Position numbers and translations under genes: made by a program. From a virus, in IMG/VR virus record IMGVR_UViG_3300045912_000479, positions 1 through 37,568 of that record: a stretch of 37,568 nt of DNA, one strand, 5' to 3'. Below are positions 25,547 to 34,582 of the stretch, piece after piece. How positions within the stretch are numbered: position 1 is the stretch's first letter; every line of letters begins with the position of its first letter. The notes beneath the pieces are model-generated. The model made no database searches. It was not told where the DNA came from and saw nothing but the letters and a program-made list of their open reading frames with translations.

Positions 25547-26164
25547 TTGATTATCGGTTTATCAGCTTGGAAAAGATCGGGCAAGGATGCCGCTTCAGAC
25601 CTATTGGTCAATGAATTCAAATTTAAGAAGGTTTCGTTTGCTAATACCCTAAAAGATATGGTTGCGGAGCAGTATGATATCCCCAGAAGCTCTCTGGATG
25701 ACCAAAACCTAAAAGAGGCCCCCTTGTTCCAATATCCCGTAGCCCCTCAGGACGCCTTTTCTAAGATGATCGCCGATTTCCTTCAAAAGGAATTCAAGGC
25801 GGACGGGAACGGAAAGCTTTACTGGACACCTAGGGCTTTAGCTATCCTTGAAGGCTCAGTTAAGCGCAGTGTAAATGCGGCGTATTGGACAAGCAGAGCT
25901 TTAAGTCAAATTAAGCCAGGCGATCTGGTAGTTATTTCAGATCTTAGATACAAGTCTGAGGCTTCTCAGATCAGAGGGTACGCTAACGCCATCGGCCAGA
26001 AGTCCTTGTTAATCAGGATTAACCGTTTTGACGAATCCCCTTCTAGCGACCCCTCAGAACGCGACCTGGATGACTATCAGCAGTTTGACGCCGTTATCGA
26101 GAACCGTGGCACTCTAGAAGAATACCTTGAAAAGGTCTCAAGTCTTGTTTTCTCCAAACTTTGA
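25547..26164 (+). CDS. Deoxynucleoside monophosphate kinase (T4 gp1-like)
   Basis: A 205-aa P-loop kinase that phosphorylates dNMPs to dNDPs for phage DNA synthesis. The P-loop is LSAWKRSGKDAAS (G12, K13), very like the dNMP kinase family signature with KRSGKD. A later VVISDLRYKSEA fits the Walker B/substrate region, and IRINRF the expected following strand. The start is a TTG at 25547 with an AGGAGG site seven bases upstream. It is a single-gene transcription unit: a divergent promoter-like element precedes it and a strong terminator follows 11 bases after the stop. Confidence 0.85.
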   Translation: MIIGLSAWKRSGKDAASDLLVNEFKFKKVSFANTLKDMVAEQYDIPRSSLDDQNLKEAPLFQYPVAPQDAFSKMIADFLQKEFKADGNGKLYWTPRALAILEGSVKRSVNAAYWTSRALSQIKPGDLVVISDLRYKSEASQIRGYANAIGQKSLLIRINRFDESPSSDPSERDLDDYQQFDAVIENRGTLEEYLEKVSSLVFSKL

Positions 26165-30452: not shown

Positions 30453-31451
30453 CTAGTCGTTCTCGCTATCGTCATCTATTGTGGTCCAAATATCATCCTC
30501 AGTATCAAGGGAGTCTGGGCTGTTTAGGTTGGACAAAATCTTAATTCCAGAACGAAAACCATTTTCGGTTTCCTCATCAATTTCAACAGCTTCCAAGATT
30601 CTGAATGGCGTTTTAAGCCAACTATTTTCTACCTGTCCGGTTAGGGTTATATAGCGACTAAAAACATTTTCACCACCAGGGCCTTCGAAATTGGGATTCT
30701 GCATAAAATCGCTGCTACTTACCGAGCTTTGCATAAACTGTCTTCCCTCTAAAAGGCTTTCTCGGTATCTTAAAATTGTATAAAGCACAATTGCATGGAG
30801 CCAAAGAAGGGTCGCAGGATCACCGTGAACATGGCATCCAATCGAATAGGTCTCTTGGAAAAAGGTGTGCTCTCTTCTTGCCTTATAAAATTGATATTTA
30901 GGTACAATACCAGCCTTTGTAAGGGTAAGATCAAGATCAGGTTCTAGCTTTAGGCCGCCCGAAACTACTTCTTGGATGATATACCCGTTTCCAGTATTTG
31001 GGTCAACCAAAATTTGACCAGCCCGAACACCTCTAAGTTTTACGGATTTGGGTACGGAAAGGATTCCAGTTGTTTGGTTGTAAGAATCTGGAATAAAGGG
31101 TTTTACTATGTACGGAATAGGTTTTCCGATCTGGTTAGGCATTAAAGTTTCAACTTCTGTTGAAAGATCGGCAAGATGCTTCATGTCTTCTTTTTCAGCA
31201 GAACTTCCAAGAGCTATTGTTACACAGGGAAACTGATCTTTGTCGTTTCGGTAGCGAAGATTAACTTCGATCTTATTGTTCATGAACCAGTCTTTGGCTG
31301 CGTCGATCTCTTTTTGGCCGTACTTATCTTTTAAAGCAGGCTCTTTTGTAAAACTTGCAAAAACGTCATCAAGAAGCCATAGGTTTTTCCTCATGTCTTC
31401 TAGACCTTGGCGTATTGCCTCAGCTATGATTACGTCTCCAGCAAAGATCAT
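30453..31451 (-). CDS. Neck or tail-completion-like structural protein, 332 aa
   Basis: I do not recognise the family with certainty. A helical N-terminal region (AIRQGLEDMRKNLWLLDDVFASF) precedes beta-rich middle segments (KIEVNLRYRNDKDQFPCVTIALG; ILVDPNTGNGYIIQEVV) and a helix WLHAIVLYTILRYRESLLEG that resembles the C-terminal helix of head-tail joining proteins. The C-terminus is very acidic (DTEDDIWTTIDDDSEND). It overlaps the gp10-like gene upstream (ATGA), so the pair are probably made together as neck or tail-terminator components. Confidence 0.55.
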   Translation of the reverse strand: MIFAGDVIIAEAIRQGLEDMRKNLWLLDDVFASFTKEPALKDKYGQKEIDAAKDWFMNNKIEVNLRYRNDKDQFPCVTIALGSSAEKEDMKHLADLSTEVETLMPNQIGKPIPYIVKPFIPDSYNQTTGILSVPKSVKLRGVRAGQILVDPNTGNGYIIQEVVSGGLKLEPDLDLTLTKAGIVPKYQFYKARREHTFFQETYSIGCHVHGDPATLLWLHAIVLYTILRYRESLLEGRQFMQSSVSSSDFMQNPNFEGPGGENVFSRYITLTGQVENSWLKTPFRILEAVEIDEETENGFRSGIKILSNLNSPDSLDTEDDIWTTIDDDSEND

Positions 31452-32206
31452 TTTGTATACTTCTCCAAAATTGAAGGGAGGATCTCATCGTTAAAGATTT
31501 TCTCTGCCCATTCCAAAGCTTCATCCATAAATTTCTTACCATCAGACCCTGGATGAATCCACTTAGAACCCTTATGTTTAGAACTTACAACCCTAAATGT
31601 CATAATATCACGTCGAACCTTACCGGACGGCAGTTTTCGTTGATATATCGTAAGACCGTCTAGGGCTCCGTGTGATGCTCTAGCACTGGGTTTTAAGGAG
31701 CTTATATCCTTTATGGTGTGAAGCCTGCCAAGCCTAGGGCTGCCATCACTGTTATATTCAATTTTTTTATAGGGTATCTTTCTAGCTTTAAGCTCAGACT
31801 TTATCTGATTCACAAACATCAAAGCACTTGCAGATGTTTGGCTAGGAGCCTTTGCATGGTCGAAAGGTATTGCTTTATATTTCGAGCCGTCTTTTGCTGT
31901 CTTAGCGTTCTTTCTGAGCAGATCTTCCGTCATATCGCCAGCTTTTCTTCCCTCTTCAATCCAAAGGGCAGGCTGATCGAGACTCACAACCCAAATGCCA
32001 TTTTCAATTTCTTGAAATTCAAGATTGTCTAAATATATCTGTCTAGTTGAGTGCAGTTTTTCAGATGCAAGCTCTTGTGTTTTGGCATAAGTCATAGATG
32101 CCACTTGCTTTACACCTTGGGTAATAGCTTCTTCGATTTCTTTTTTAAGCTCGCCAAATTCCTGAGCAATTGCTTCGGCGTTTACAAAAAATCTAAGATT
32201 TGACAT
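31448..32206 (-). CDS. HK97 gp10-like neck/tail-completion protein
   Basis: A 252-aa protein. The N-terminal helix (FGELKKEIEEAITQGVKQVASMTYAKTQE) followed by the strand containing WVVSLDQPALWIEEGRK, and the C-terminal TFRVVSSK, then KWIHPG and a final helix with MDEALEWAEKIFNDEI, follow the plan of HK97 gp10-like proteins, which link head and tail or complete the tail. It starts with TAATG, sharing its A with the stop of the -1 reading frame extension of the upstream gene. It therefore probably receives ribosomes from the frameshifted product. Confidence 0.65.
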   Translation of the reverse strand: MSNLRFFVNAEAIAQEFGELKKEIEEAITQGVKQVASMTYAKTQELASEKLHSTRQIYLDNLEFQEIENGIWVVSLDQPALWIEEGRKAGDMTEDLLRKNAKTAKDGSKYKAIPFDHAKAPSQTSASALMFVNQIKSELKARKIPYKKIEYNSDGSPRLGRLHTIKDISSLKPSARASHGALDGLTIYQRKLPSGKVRRDIMTFRVVSSKHKGSKWIHPGSDGKKFMDEALEWAEKIFNDEILPSILEKYTK

Positions 32207-32415
32207 TAGTACCTCTCGTGAGTAATGTCGCCACCATTATCCAATAACATTCCAATTTTTGCATCTACATATTTCATTCTTCCGGTTTGATTATCAACAA
32301 CTTTTATGCGACCATCGTTTGTGACGAAACCTTCGGGTTTTTCCGGTTTGGCGACATGACGTGTCGTTTGTTTGGCTGGCAGGCGTCGCGTGCCTATCCC
32401 TGTCAGCCGTTCTGC
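32206..32415 (-). CDS. -1 frame extension (69 codons) of the GGDEF/mCpol-like protein
   Basis: No start codon opens this frame near its beginning; the first ATG is at codon 47. Read by -1 slippage at CCCAAAG (32421-32415) it adds 69 residues to residue 413 of the 416-aa product, giving 482 aa. The extension begins AERLTGIGTRR, continues through a basic and proline-containing linker (RHVAKPEKPEG) and ends in a compact GRIKVVDNQTGRMKYVDAK segment with LLDNGGDITHERY. Its stop TAA shares its last base with the ATG of the gp10-like gene. Codon use and composition look coding all along. The alternative, a separate small gene with a rare start codon, has no ribosome site. Confidence 0.75.
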   Translation of the reverse strand, partial: AERLTGIGTRRLPAKQTTRHVAKPEKPEGFVTNDGRIKVVDNQTGRMKYVDAKIGMLLDNGGDITHERY

Positions 32416-32421
32416 TTTGGG
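32374..32421 (-). promoter_or_regulatory. Programmed -1 ribosomal frameshift signal
   Basis: On the minus strand, heptamer C CCA AAG (32421-32415) fits the X XXY YYZ rule in the zero frame. Six bases follow, and then a hairpin: arms GGCTGACAGG (32408-32399) and CCTGCCAGCC (32383-32374), nine of ten pairs with one A-C mismatch and a 15-base loop. The zero-frame stop TGA (32405-32403) lies inside the first arm, so both products diverge at the structure. Confidence 0.78.
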
Positions 32422-33653
32422 AGTTGCTGCTCCAACTGCTGTTGTTGAGGGATATTCCCAGAAGGAACATCGATCATCTCTTCTTCCTGTTCTGGTGACA
32501 CAGCGTCAGGACTGATCATCTTAGCAAGTTCGATCATGTTATGAAGAAGCCCCAACATGGAAGCGTAAAGCTCCGGTTTAGCTTCTTTGATTTGGTCCAT
32601 AAGTTCTTTGTTTTGTTTAAAAGCATCAAGATTTGCGGCGATTCTTTGTAGAATATCTTCGTTAACGTCAGCATCTGCAAGGTCCGCATCAATACTGTCT
32701 TCTTCTGTCGCCATTTCAGGGTCTGCTTTTTCAGCATTTGGATCTTCCTGATTTTCATCAAGAACATCCTCACCCTCAAGAGCGATAGTCGGCTCTTGTT
32801 CAAATTCAGATGGTTCTGATTGCTCATCCTCAGTCATGAAGTCTTCTTCTATATCAGACTGATCTTCATTTAAATCAACTAAAAATTCTCCATCAGACTC
32901 TGCATCTTCATTATTTTGATCTTGGTATTCGTCATACTGATTTTGGTATTCGTCATACTGATTTTGGTATTCGTCATACTGATCTTGGTATTCGTCATCA
33001 TCCATAGGAATTTCTCCGTCAGGAACGACGTCTTCATCTACAGGAACGACGTCTTCATCTACCATCTCATCTTCTGGCAAAGAATCTTCCATACCCTCAG
33101 GTAATTGCATCATATCTTCTGGAGATTCTTCGTAAAATTCAGAATCCTCATCTTGAGGCATTTCTTCGTCTATTGGGGCCTGTTGGTCCTCTGCAATTGC
33201 ATGAATATAGTGATCATCCATTTTTTGCTGTTCTTCATTAGCGGTTCCGGCCCGAGCCGCCTCATGAGCTTCGTTCAGTGCGTCCTCAACTGATTGGTCA
33301 TATCGAACAGATTTGTTTTTTCCGGTGAGCTTAGCGGCAATCAAGGCCTTTCCAGCTTGGCTTAAGCTATTTCCTAAGCCAACAGAGGCAGAAAATCCTG
33401 TAATCTCTTTGTATTTTTCTCGCATGTCTTCTATTTTTGATTCATGCTCAGGATCTAAAATTGCAGTCAGCTCATCTCCGCCAGAACTAATAATCTGTCC
33501 GCCCAAAGCAAGTATCATGTCTTTCACAGCTTTGCTTCCTGCGTCAATTTTTCTTGACATATCATGCAGCATCTGAACGTCATCCATCAAAACAGCTTGT
33601 CCGATGTGCTGCCCTGCGTTATCTCCATCTAAGGCTATGAACAAACGATTCAT
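32403..33653 (-). CDS. GGDEF/mCpol-like palm-domain protein with acidic repeats (zero-frame product, 416 aa)
   Basis: Residues 1-120 read as a nucleotidyl-cyclase palm: FIALDGDN (metal ligands D9, D11), SSGGDELTAIL (G58-E61, second metal site), TGFSASVGLG (90-94) and AKLTGKNKSVRY (107-118), the order seen in GGDEF and mCpol (minimal CRISPR polymerase) domains that build cyclic nucleotides. Residues about 150-320 are extremely acidic, with tandem YDEYQNQ and VDEDVVP repeats. A helical domain follows (ILQRIAANLDAFKQNKELMD; LYASMLGLLHNMIELAKM). The gene ends at 32403, but a -1 frameshift should make a longer form to 32206. Activity is unproven: the domain may be a degenerate structural relic. 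The ATG at 33653 overlaps the previous stop (ATGA). Confidence 0.75.
   Translation of the reverse strand: MNRLFIALDGDNAGQHIGQAVLMDDVQMLHDMSRKIDAGSKAVKDMILALGGQIISSGGDELTAILDPEHESKIEDMREKYKEITGFSASVGLGNSLSQAGKALIAAKLTGKNKSVRYDQSVEDALNEAHEAARAGTANEEQQKMDDHYIHAIAEDQQAPIDEEMPQDEDSEFYEESPEDMMQLPEGMEDSLPEDEMVDEDVVPVDEDVVPDGEIPMDDDEYQDQYDEYQNQYDEYQNQYDEYQDQNNEDAESDGEFLVDLNEDQSDIEEDFMTEDEQSEPSEFEQEPTIALEGEDVLDENQEDPNAEKADPEMATEEDSIDADLADADVNEDILQRIAANLDAFKQNKELMDQIKEAKPELYASMLGLLHNMIELAKMISPDAVSPEQEEEMIDVPSGNIPQQQQLEQQLPKQNG
32922..32999 (-). repeat. 21-bp tandem repeat, 3.7 units, coding YDEYQNQ
   Basis: Three full units (32922-32942, 32943-32963, 32964-32984) and a partial fourth, nearly identical at DNA level, so recent expansion or slippage is likely. 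Being a multiple of three, copy changes keep the frame. Confidence 0.9.
33021..33062 (-). repeat. 21-bp tandem duplication coding VDEDVVP
   Basis: Two identical 21-bp units (33021-33041, 33042-33062) in the acidic region, of the same length as the neighbouring repeat but different in sequence. Confidence 0.88.
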
Positions 33654-34582
33654 TTTTTACTCCTGTTTCTTCTCTCTCGGAGAACCTCAAGTAACATTTC
33701 AATGTTTTCTGGGTCCCATTGCTTAGAAAAACTAAGCTGAAGTCCGGTTTCACTTTTCCTGATATGAATCTTTTTATTTCGATCGGGGCCGAAGCAGATA
33801 CATCCAGAAAAACCACTTTCATCAAATATTTTATTTCCGCAATCTGGACAGGTTACGGATTCGCTTTTTTCAATTTTAATTTCATACGAAGGATTGGAAG
33901 CTTTTGCAGCTTTCTTTTCAAGAAACTGTTTTAGTTTTAATGGCTTCTTTTCCATGGTAAGCTTTTTTTCTTCCTTCTCTTGCGAGCTATTTAACTTTTC
34001 TGAAGAACCCGAGCTTTCAAGTAGCATCTGGGAAAGCCTCATCTTAACAAGCTCTTCAATAGCCTGTCTTTGAGAAAGCTTTTCATCAACAACTTTAGAC
34101 ACAAGATCTCTAAGCCTAAGCTTTTCATCTATGATGTCTTGAACACGTTCAAGATCCAAAAGATCGGAAGAAGATTGCTTACCCATGCGGCTAAGATCAT
34201 CAATGTCGTATAACTCGAAAGCCGACATGATGACGAGACCGACCCCAGGTAAGGACCGATATTTAAATGAGCTTACGATCTCGCTTTTTTGCCGGATTTC
34301 TCCAGAGTAGACGTCATTTGCAAATTTAGTGACGCTCAAAAAAGCCTCGGGCTCTATCGGAATTTTGATTTCCTTTCCTTCGTTCTCCTTCATTTCTCCA
34401 AGTTCTTTTTGTAAAAAACTTAGAATTGTTCTCGGTACAATCTGAAGAGCCGTTTTAATCTCTTCAGGGTCTAAGACCGTATTGGTCTTTTTTTTATATA
34501 GCTCTACCTTGTTAAGCTCCTCAAAGCCGTCTTCACCTAAAGTTTTTTTCAAAAAAATGATAGCTTGAGGTTTATAGGTCAT
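33650..34582 (-). CDS. Helical protein with LKQFL motif and C-terminal zinc ribbon
   Basis: A 310-aa protein. The first 200 residues are helical and charged (LGEDGFEELNKVELYKKK; VQDIIDEKLRLRDLVSKV). Then KPLKLKQFLEKKAAKASN, one of four LKxF-type motifs, precedes a zinc-binding module with C-x2-C (VTCPDCGNKIF) and C-x-C (FSGCICFG), ending in a basic C-terminus. The family is not recognised. The order of a targeting-like motif directly before a separate domain is notable. The ATG lies behind AAGG, and the end overlaps the mCpol-like gene by four bases, so the two proteins are probably made in fixed ratio. Confidence 0.6.
   Translation of the reverse strand: MTYKPQAIIFLKKTLGEDGFEELNKVELYKKKTNTVLDPEEIKTALQIVPRTILSFLQKELGEMKENEGKEIKIPIEPEAFLSVTKFANDVYSGEIRQKSEIVSSFKYRSLPGVGLVIMSAFELYDIDDLSRMGKQSSSDLLDLERVQDIIDEKLRLRDLVSKVVDEKLSQRQAIEELVKMRLSQMLLESSGSSEKLNSSQEKEEKKLTMEKKPLKLKQFLEKKAAKASNPSYEIKIEKSESVTCPDCGNKIFDESGFSGCICFGPDRNKKIHIRKSETGLQLSFSKQWDPENIEMLLEVLRERRNRSKK

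Follow-up and report, generated by a model that had tools for sequence, protein, structure and literature searches.

The stretch of DNA analysed here, which we call the window, comprises the 37,568 bases of a virus record and carries tail sheath, terminase and GroEL genes, and on its minus strand lies a gene (32403-33653) for a protein of 416 residues composed of a domain of the minimal CRISPR polymerase (mCpol) family, a long acidic linker and a predicted C-terminal helix. The gene ends in CTC CCA AAG CAG AAC GGC TGA and its protein in ...LPKQNG*; within this end a sequence-only reading had picked out CCCAAAG as a candidate slip site, and when the window is read base for base the heptamer C_CCA_AAG (32415-32421, minus strand, read from 32421 to 32415) does stand in the X_XXY_YYZ phase, with the zero-frame stop TGA (32403-32405, minus strand) as the fourth codon after it. 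The -1 frame had also been described as open as far as the next gene, and from the CCC onwards it runs for 71 codons, giving 69 new residues (the extension, 32209-32415, minus strand), down to a TAA (32206-32208, minus strand) that closes it and overlaps the following ATG as TAATG. This ATG opens a structural-operon gene (252 aa; 31448-32206, minus strand) that had been called gp10-like and that matches phrog_16819, a family of unknown function, and is weakly matched by SPO1 gp7.1-like genes; the mCpol gene lies directly ahead of it, and ends some 3.4 kb before the start of the sheath gene. On the other side, the upstream neighbour (33650-34582, minus strand) encodes 310 aa with a C-terminal CPDC...CICF stretch that by eye is zinc-ribbon-like, and in several further loci, too, a relative of it lies ahead of the mCpol gene. 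The neighbours with PHROGs matches are virion genes or genes of unknown function. Between the tail genes, on the opposite strand (25547-26164, plus), there is an ORF of 205 aa that by eye resembles a P-loop kinase (GLSAWKRSGKDAAS). The same layout is found in three other IMG/VR contigs (L001-L003) with three different metagenome ids, and thus an indel of a single assembly is an unlikely origin for it.

The first part of the protein (residues 5-118; 33300-33641, minus strand), with the motifs ALDGDNAG and SSGGDE, had been labelled GGDEF/mCpol-like, a label that is right and that can be narrowed to mCpol: the Pfam family PF18182 (mCpol) matches at E 2.5e-18, with 66.9 bits against a curated cut-off of 26.4, and the PDB OptS/mCpol chains 9nwn and 9mnr are matched over nearly their whole length at E 7e-10 and 9e-10. 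Two hand-picked alignments, A4 (33 members) and A5 (36 members), were taken from the 43 full-length upstream ORFs. All 33 members of A4, window included, match mCpol at E <= 0.01, and in A5 the aspartate at window residue 11 is kept in 36 of 36 domains and that at residue 60 in 35 of 36, Mx1 being the exception, while the first D of DGD is an N in 8 of the 36 aligned. The seven ORFs outside A5, judged by reading, comprise three that are normal, one that is altered (L050) and three without an mCpol domain (L054, L060 and L061); with these added, 39 of 43 have D at residue 11, which is changed in L050, where NAN takes the place of DGD, and has no counterpart in the three that lack the domain. 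The predicted catalytic acidic residues, whose role is taken from the mCpol family, are thus conserved in the window and in A5, with the exception of Mx1, and are not conserved in L050.

At the level of the known collections, none of the 33 upstream mCpol proteins of A4, the window's among them, has a match in PHROGs; a search of GenBank phage proteins gave no match with the window mCpol protein as query, and Mx1 as the only match when the query was the in-frame fused protein of locus L077. PADLOC 2.0.0, run on nine window proteins, found no Panoptes-type effector gene (2TM/S-2TM-beta, CARF, SAVED), its sole match being CARF_HEPN_mCpol, which covers the mCpol domain itself.

After the domain comes the acidic linker with its tandem DQYDEYQ repeats, whose number (window 32915-33000) varies between the window and the nearest contigs, and then a conserved stretch, FKQNKELMDQIKEAKPELYASMLGLLHNMIEL (32529-32642, minus strand, limits approximate), predicted from its sequence to be a helix, in which L342, P360, Y363, L370 and I374 are conserved in A4. 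In one locus, L005 (contig of L003, 299-2533), the C-terminal half of the mCpol gene is almost identical to that of the window, the N-terminal domain is divergent, and an ORF of 309 aa, HNH-like by eye, precedes the gene; this is likely a recombinant with a swapped enzyme domain. In L049 the mCpol gene is present without the extension.

The comparison across phages was anchored on the downstream 252-aa gene, whose profile matched 74 viral loci and two in MAGs; L035, L039, L085 and L096, which start inside the downstream gene, were left out and Mx1 and the window added, so that 74 loci were tested. The extension was found in 65 of these 74 with an 8-sequence model that recovers its own source loci by construction, and four of the calls as fused (L021, L063, L082 and L088) rest on weak matches to this model (E 0.0027-0.048); the extension of Mx1 matches a 49-sequence model at E 5.5e-5. 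At 95% identity the loci form 62 clusters. The extension sits in the -1 frame in 34 of these and in the +1/-2 frame in 3; 15 are in-frame fusions, one is truncated and nine are without it, the last figure still counting L041 and L045, in which the extension is present on the opposite strand. The phages that carry this gene are tailed and nearly all uncultivated, and the cultured Myxococcus phage Mx1, with the protein WNM70340.1, is one of the 15 fused lineages. In 13 of 16 long records, hand-picked for the extension and mCpol search and up to 177 kb in size, the extension is present once per record. As a separate observation, 600 nt ahead of the matched part of the downstream-type gene in L097, a stretch that by eye resembles an intein or homing insert seems to interrupt the gene.

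When these homologues are compared, the heptamer, the hairpin and the -1 frame of the sequence-only reading are found to be kept far beyond the near relatives. Within the ORF overlap, a canonical in-phase heptamer occurs in 34 of 34 non-redundant -1 loci, which are related and thus not independent events. Given how often these heptamers fall in phase across the same genes (162 times in 25,196 codons), 3.2 such loci would be expected, and each wrong phase has a heptamer in just 5 of the 34. Loss of the heptamer beside an intact -1 frame, which had been named at the outset as speaking against a slip site, has no case among the 34. The last heptamer is CCCAAAG in 18 of them, AAAAAAG in 13, CCCAAAA in 2 and AAAAAAA in 1, and five loci have two heptamers in the overlap. 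Among the C_CCA_AAG-like sites, the codon preceding CCCAAA(G/A) ends in C in 20 of 20 loci against a mean of 18% among its synonyms in these genes; these 20 were picked by their heptamer, yet every -1 locus has some heptamer. In E. coli, with the stimulators of insertion sequences, C_CCA_AAG, G_GGA_AAG and A_AAA_AAG are described as the most efficient heptamers (PMC4066793).

A hairpin starting six bases after CCCAAAG had been predicted, and the window bears this out (32374-32408, minus strand): following CAGAAC, a spacer of 6 nt, GGCTGACAGG (32408-32399) can pair with CCTGCCAGCC (32383-32374) across a loop of 15 nt, with 9 pairs and one A.C mismatch. Across the -1 loci, the 50 nt 3' of the heptamer fold better than their shuffles, with a mean z of -2.64 and 23 of 34 loci below -2, whereas at eleven other offsets the mean z is only -0.80 to +0.12; the best stem, among starts tried from 3 to 11 nt after the heptamer, begins at 6 nt in 18 of 34, at 5-9 nt in 26 and at 3-4 nt in 8. 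In L073, L075, L080 and L078 these 50 nt fold no better than shuffles. In the window clade (nine sequences) 98.8% of the cells of the hairpin are paired, against at most 44.4% when it is slid along, and the covariation there is modest, with a double change at a single pair and a score that 51 of 500 shuffles equal or exceed; as this covariation is by itself too weak to prove the hairpin, it is the offset control that carries the case. On the 5' side, the window has a weak Shine-Dalgarno-like TGGAGC (32429-32434, minus strand), with 4 of 6 matches to AGGAGG, and a stretch with 5 or 6 matches precedes the heptamer in 22 of 34 -1 loci against 15 of 340 control stretches from the same genes.

These stimulators also bear on the idea that the long form is made by transcriptional slippage on a run of A and not by the ribosome. 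RNA polymerase is able to slip on runs of A, and the last heptamer is AAAAAAG or AAAAAAA in 14 of the 34 loci; in the remaining 20, among them the window, the site is CCCAAA(G/A), which has no more than three or four A, all 34 loci preserve the codon phase, and both the hairpin 3' and the Shine-Dalgarno-like stretch 5' fit ribosomal slippage. Slippage of the polymerase seems to us quite improbable. The comparison of sequences strongly supports a programmed -1 frameshift, and likewise supports the view that both the slip signal and the -1 coding frame have been selected.

The extension is itself, by its pattern of changes, under purifying selection in the -1 frame. Past the zero-frame stop, the nine window-clade sequences differ by 675 synonymous and 125 non-synonymous single changes when read in the -1 frame, and by 89 and 725, respectively, when read in the zero frame, these being pairwise counts and not independent. 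As for what the extension could be, a PDB fold search with the extension model gave no match (best E 2.5), and an AlphaFold2 model contains two beta strands and little else (pLDDT 73, pTM 0.42). Pfam, applied to 49 extensions, gave weak matches only, the best being to SUKH-4 at E 0.011 in one member, which we do not believe. In L019 (692-3958), a protein of 1089 aa and of another kind, adjoining the end of a diverged mCpol-like gene, ends by eye in a similar helix motif and an extension-like tail that the extension model misses, so that the C-terminal helix/extension module may be shared between proteins.

A reading frame under selection could also be a small gene of its own, whose translation starts internally or resumes once ribosomes have terminated at the mCpol stop, with the heptamer incidental. 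The end of the extension at the TAATG of the next gene makes translational coupling plausible, the Shine-Dalgarno-like stretches upstream of the heptamer could be taken in the same sense, and in five of the 34 -1 loci (L040, L044, L051, L067 and L070) an ATG or TTG lies near the conserved core. The window had been said to offer no usable start, and so it is: from the opening of the -1 frame to 30 nt into the core there is no ATG, GTG or TTG, and the first ATG comes only at residue 49 of 71. The same absence is found in 29 of the 34 -1 loci, which makes a separate gene with its own start, the arrangement that had been named as counting against a fusion by slippage, unlikely; the in-phase heptamer in all 34 and the in-frame fusions in 15 lineages further oppose an independent gene, and we consider it very improbable. 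The tie to the downstream gene that the sequence-only reading had seen is weakened by L041 and L045, in which the mCpol gene and its extension are inverted, on the strand opposite to the downstream structural gene; since the two are inverted together, the extension goes with mCpol and not with the downstream gene.

L041 and L045 are also close relatives that have the junction sequence TTAAAAAAAAAGCCTTAAAA in common, the former being fused and the latter split, with its extension in the -1 frame at A_AAA_AAG. Such a pair, and a quick tree of the downstream protein on which split and fused forms interchange at least nine times (and the type of heptamer at least five), would be what is expected if a gene once fused had been broken by a recent frameshift mutation or an assembly indel, its extension now decaying or being read by chance slippage. 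However, the same arrangement is present in contigs of several metagenome ids, the -1 frame is under purifying selection, and the slip sites are of the efficient types and come with stimulators, so that this origin is, in our judgement, extremely improbable.

In three lineages (L065, L092 and L094) the extension lies in the +1/-2 frame, and here an in-phase CC_CCA_CAG precedes the stop by 1, 1 and 5 codons, respectively, an octamer with a background of one in-phase occurrence in 15,857 codons. The hairpin that follows is strong in L065 (z -4.3) and L094 (z -4.0) and just -0.9 in L092, and a perfect AGGAGG precedes the octamer in L065 and L092. Apparently, a slip of -2 would re-pair CCA CAG on CCC CAC, and slippage of this kind is known from phage Mu (PMC5009743).

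The fused lineages are also informative in this respect. In five of them (L077, L098, L083, L064 and L054) an in-phase heptamer precedes the core by exactly 12 codons, and a -1 slip on it would run into a stop after 1 to 14 codons; in L077, L098 and L083 this is accompanied by a hairpin (z below -2.5) and a Shine-Dalgarno-like stretch of 5 or 6 matches, and in L054 and L064 the stimulators are weak. A further fused lineage, L068, has CC_CCA_CAG with AGGAGG and a hairpin. Counting any canonical heptamer in 44 codons gives 6 of 15 fused loci where 4.2 heptamers are expected, which alone is not significant, and the case for a kept site is thus made by the common distance of exactly 12 codons in five of them and by the stimulators in three. 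In nine of the 15 fused lineages no slip site of such a type was found at that place, and it follows that a fixed ratio is not always needed. The few fused relatives that keep the signal, which would now give early termination, suggest that both lengths matter, and that some lineages retain both while swapping the default product.

The mCpol part has altered motifs in Mx1, L050 and L089, it has diverged greatly in L086, where the match at E 0.009 falls below the cut-off, and in the fused L054, L060 and L061 it is absent, with the linker, the helix stretch and the extension retained; the record of L060, searched for mCpol, gave no match at E <= 0.01. In L060, L061 and L054 several CxYC-type repeats stand before the helix stretch and the extension. 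The C-terminal part can therefore outlive the enzyme, and all of this, as well as the N in place of the first D of DGD in 8 of 36, would suit an mCpol fold that acts as a virion scaffold making no nucleotide, with both lengths structural as in the two-length phage coat proteins. Against this, the aspartates at residue 11 (36 of 36 in A5, 39 of 43 overall) and residue 60 (35 of 36 in A5) are so conserved that it is hard to explain them without catalysis in most lineages; a scaffold role for the domain is a real possibility, while falling short of a probable one. Judged by these conserved residues, the domain would work as a nucleotide cyclase in most of the phages.

The reading that we prefer, and that we hold to be probable as a whole, is of a frameshift-extended mCpol gene in a virion operon, with a short and a long product, for which docking of the extension and activity of the enzyme are inferred. 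The signal at the end of the mCpol gene would consist of C_CCA_AAG, the hairpin 6 nt further on and, in most relatives, the Shine-Dalgarno-like stretch before it. Most ribosomes would terminate at the TGA and release the mCpol-linker-helix protein, and a fraction would slip back one base and add the 69-residue extension. This would be a putative docking or packaging module, by which some of the mCpol/helix protein would be anchored in the head-neck region of the virion, and the rate of slippage would set the ratio of anchored to free protein. A bolder form of this proposal, which we put forward as rather unlikely, is that the frameshift tag packs active mCpol into the particle so that it would be delivered with the DNA, and that its cyclic dinucleotide would inhibit Panoptes-type effectors or otherwise mislead nucleotide-based immunity; slippage would then set the number of copies packed and of those retained in the cell, and some lineages would swap the default and keep both.

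Phages are already known to use frameshifting in virion genes, the described cases being tail chaperones and those head and tube proteins that bear Ig-like extensions (PMC5009743), and published accounts place mCpol in operons of the Panoptes and related types in bacteria and archaea (PMC12657218, PMC12657230). A literature search for phage mCpol, for this frameshift or for the extension found no paper, nor did one on Mx1; the accessible portions of PMC12657218 and PMC12657230 do not mention an mCpol in a phage virion operon, and in that of PMC7824862, on jumbo phages, the word mCpol is absent. What the present loci contribute is a link, seen in a broad range of phages, between the frameshifting of a virion gene and a protein related to a defence enzyme whose products are cyclic nucleotides. 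They also offer a natural comparative experiment, in which the slip site is swapped among C_CCA_AAG, A_AAA_AAG, C_CCA_AAA and apparently CC_CCA_CAG, with the default frame giving the short product in some lineages and the long one in others. If mCpol were active and in the particle, virion assembly would be linked, in a testable manner, to the arms race of nucleotide signalling.

Among the known systems, the signals of the E. coli type (dnaX and the transposases of the IS3 family) are similar in having an in-phase heptamer of the most efficient types, a Shine-Dalgarno-like stretch before the site (22 of 34 here) and a stem at 6 nt (the best stem in 18 of 34 here). In dnaX the -1 frame ends early, as it does in some of the fused relatives. 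The differences are that the gene that hosts the signal is here the mCpol gene of a phage virion operon, and that the site alternates among CCCAAAG, AAAAAAG, CCCAAAA and, in three lineages, apparently CCCCACAG. The tail-assembly chaperones (G/GT of lambda, and -2 in Mu) resemble it as phage late genes that gain a C-terminal extension by slippage, and in them too the direction of the slip can change between phages (PMC5009743); however, the mCpol gene precedes an SPO1 gp7.1-like gene and does not lie between the major tail or tube gene and the tape measure gene, and is set apart both by this position and by the absence of PHROGs matches (33 of 33). The head and tail proteins with Ig-like extensions (T3, A2, PSA, A118) also carry a C-terminal extension on a fraction of a virion protein, and their state (fused, -1 or +1) varies between phages (PMC5009743), but here the extension is not Ig-like by Pfam or fold search, and the base protein is an mCpol protein and not a coat or tube protein. 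To the OptS/mCpol of Panoptes (PF18182) the likeness is that of a whole-domain match with conserved acidic motifs, from which it differs in being encoded by a phage amid virion genes, fused to an acidic linker, a helix stretch and a frameshifted extension, and with the effector model absent among the nine window proteins. The nearest logic is found in viral frameshifting that joins an enzyme to some copies of a structural product; the order is reversed in the present case, where the gene starts with the enzyme and slippage would add the presumed anchor.
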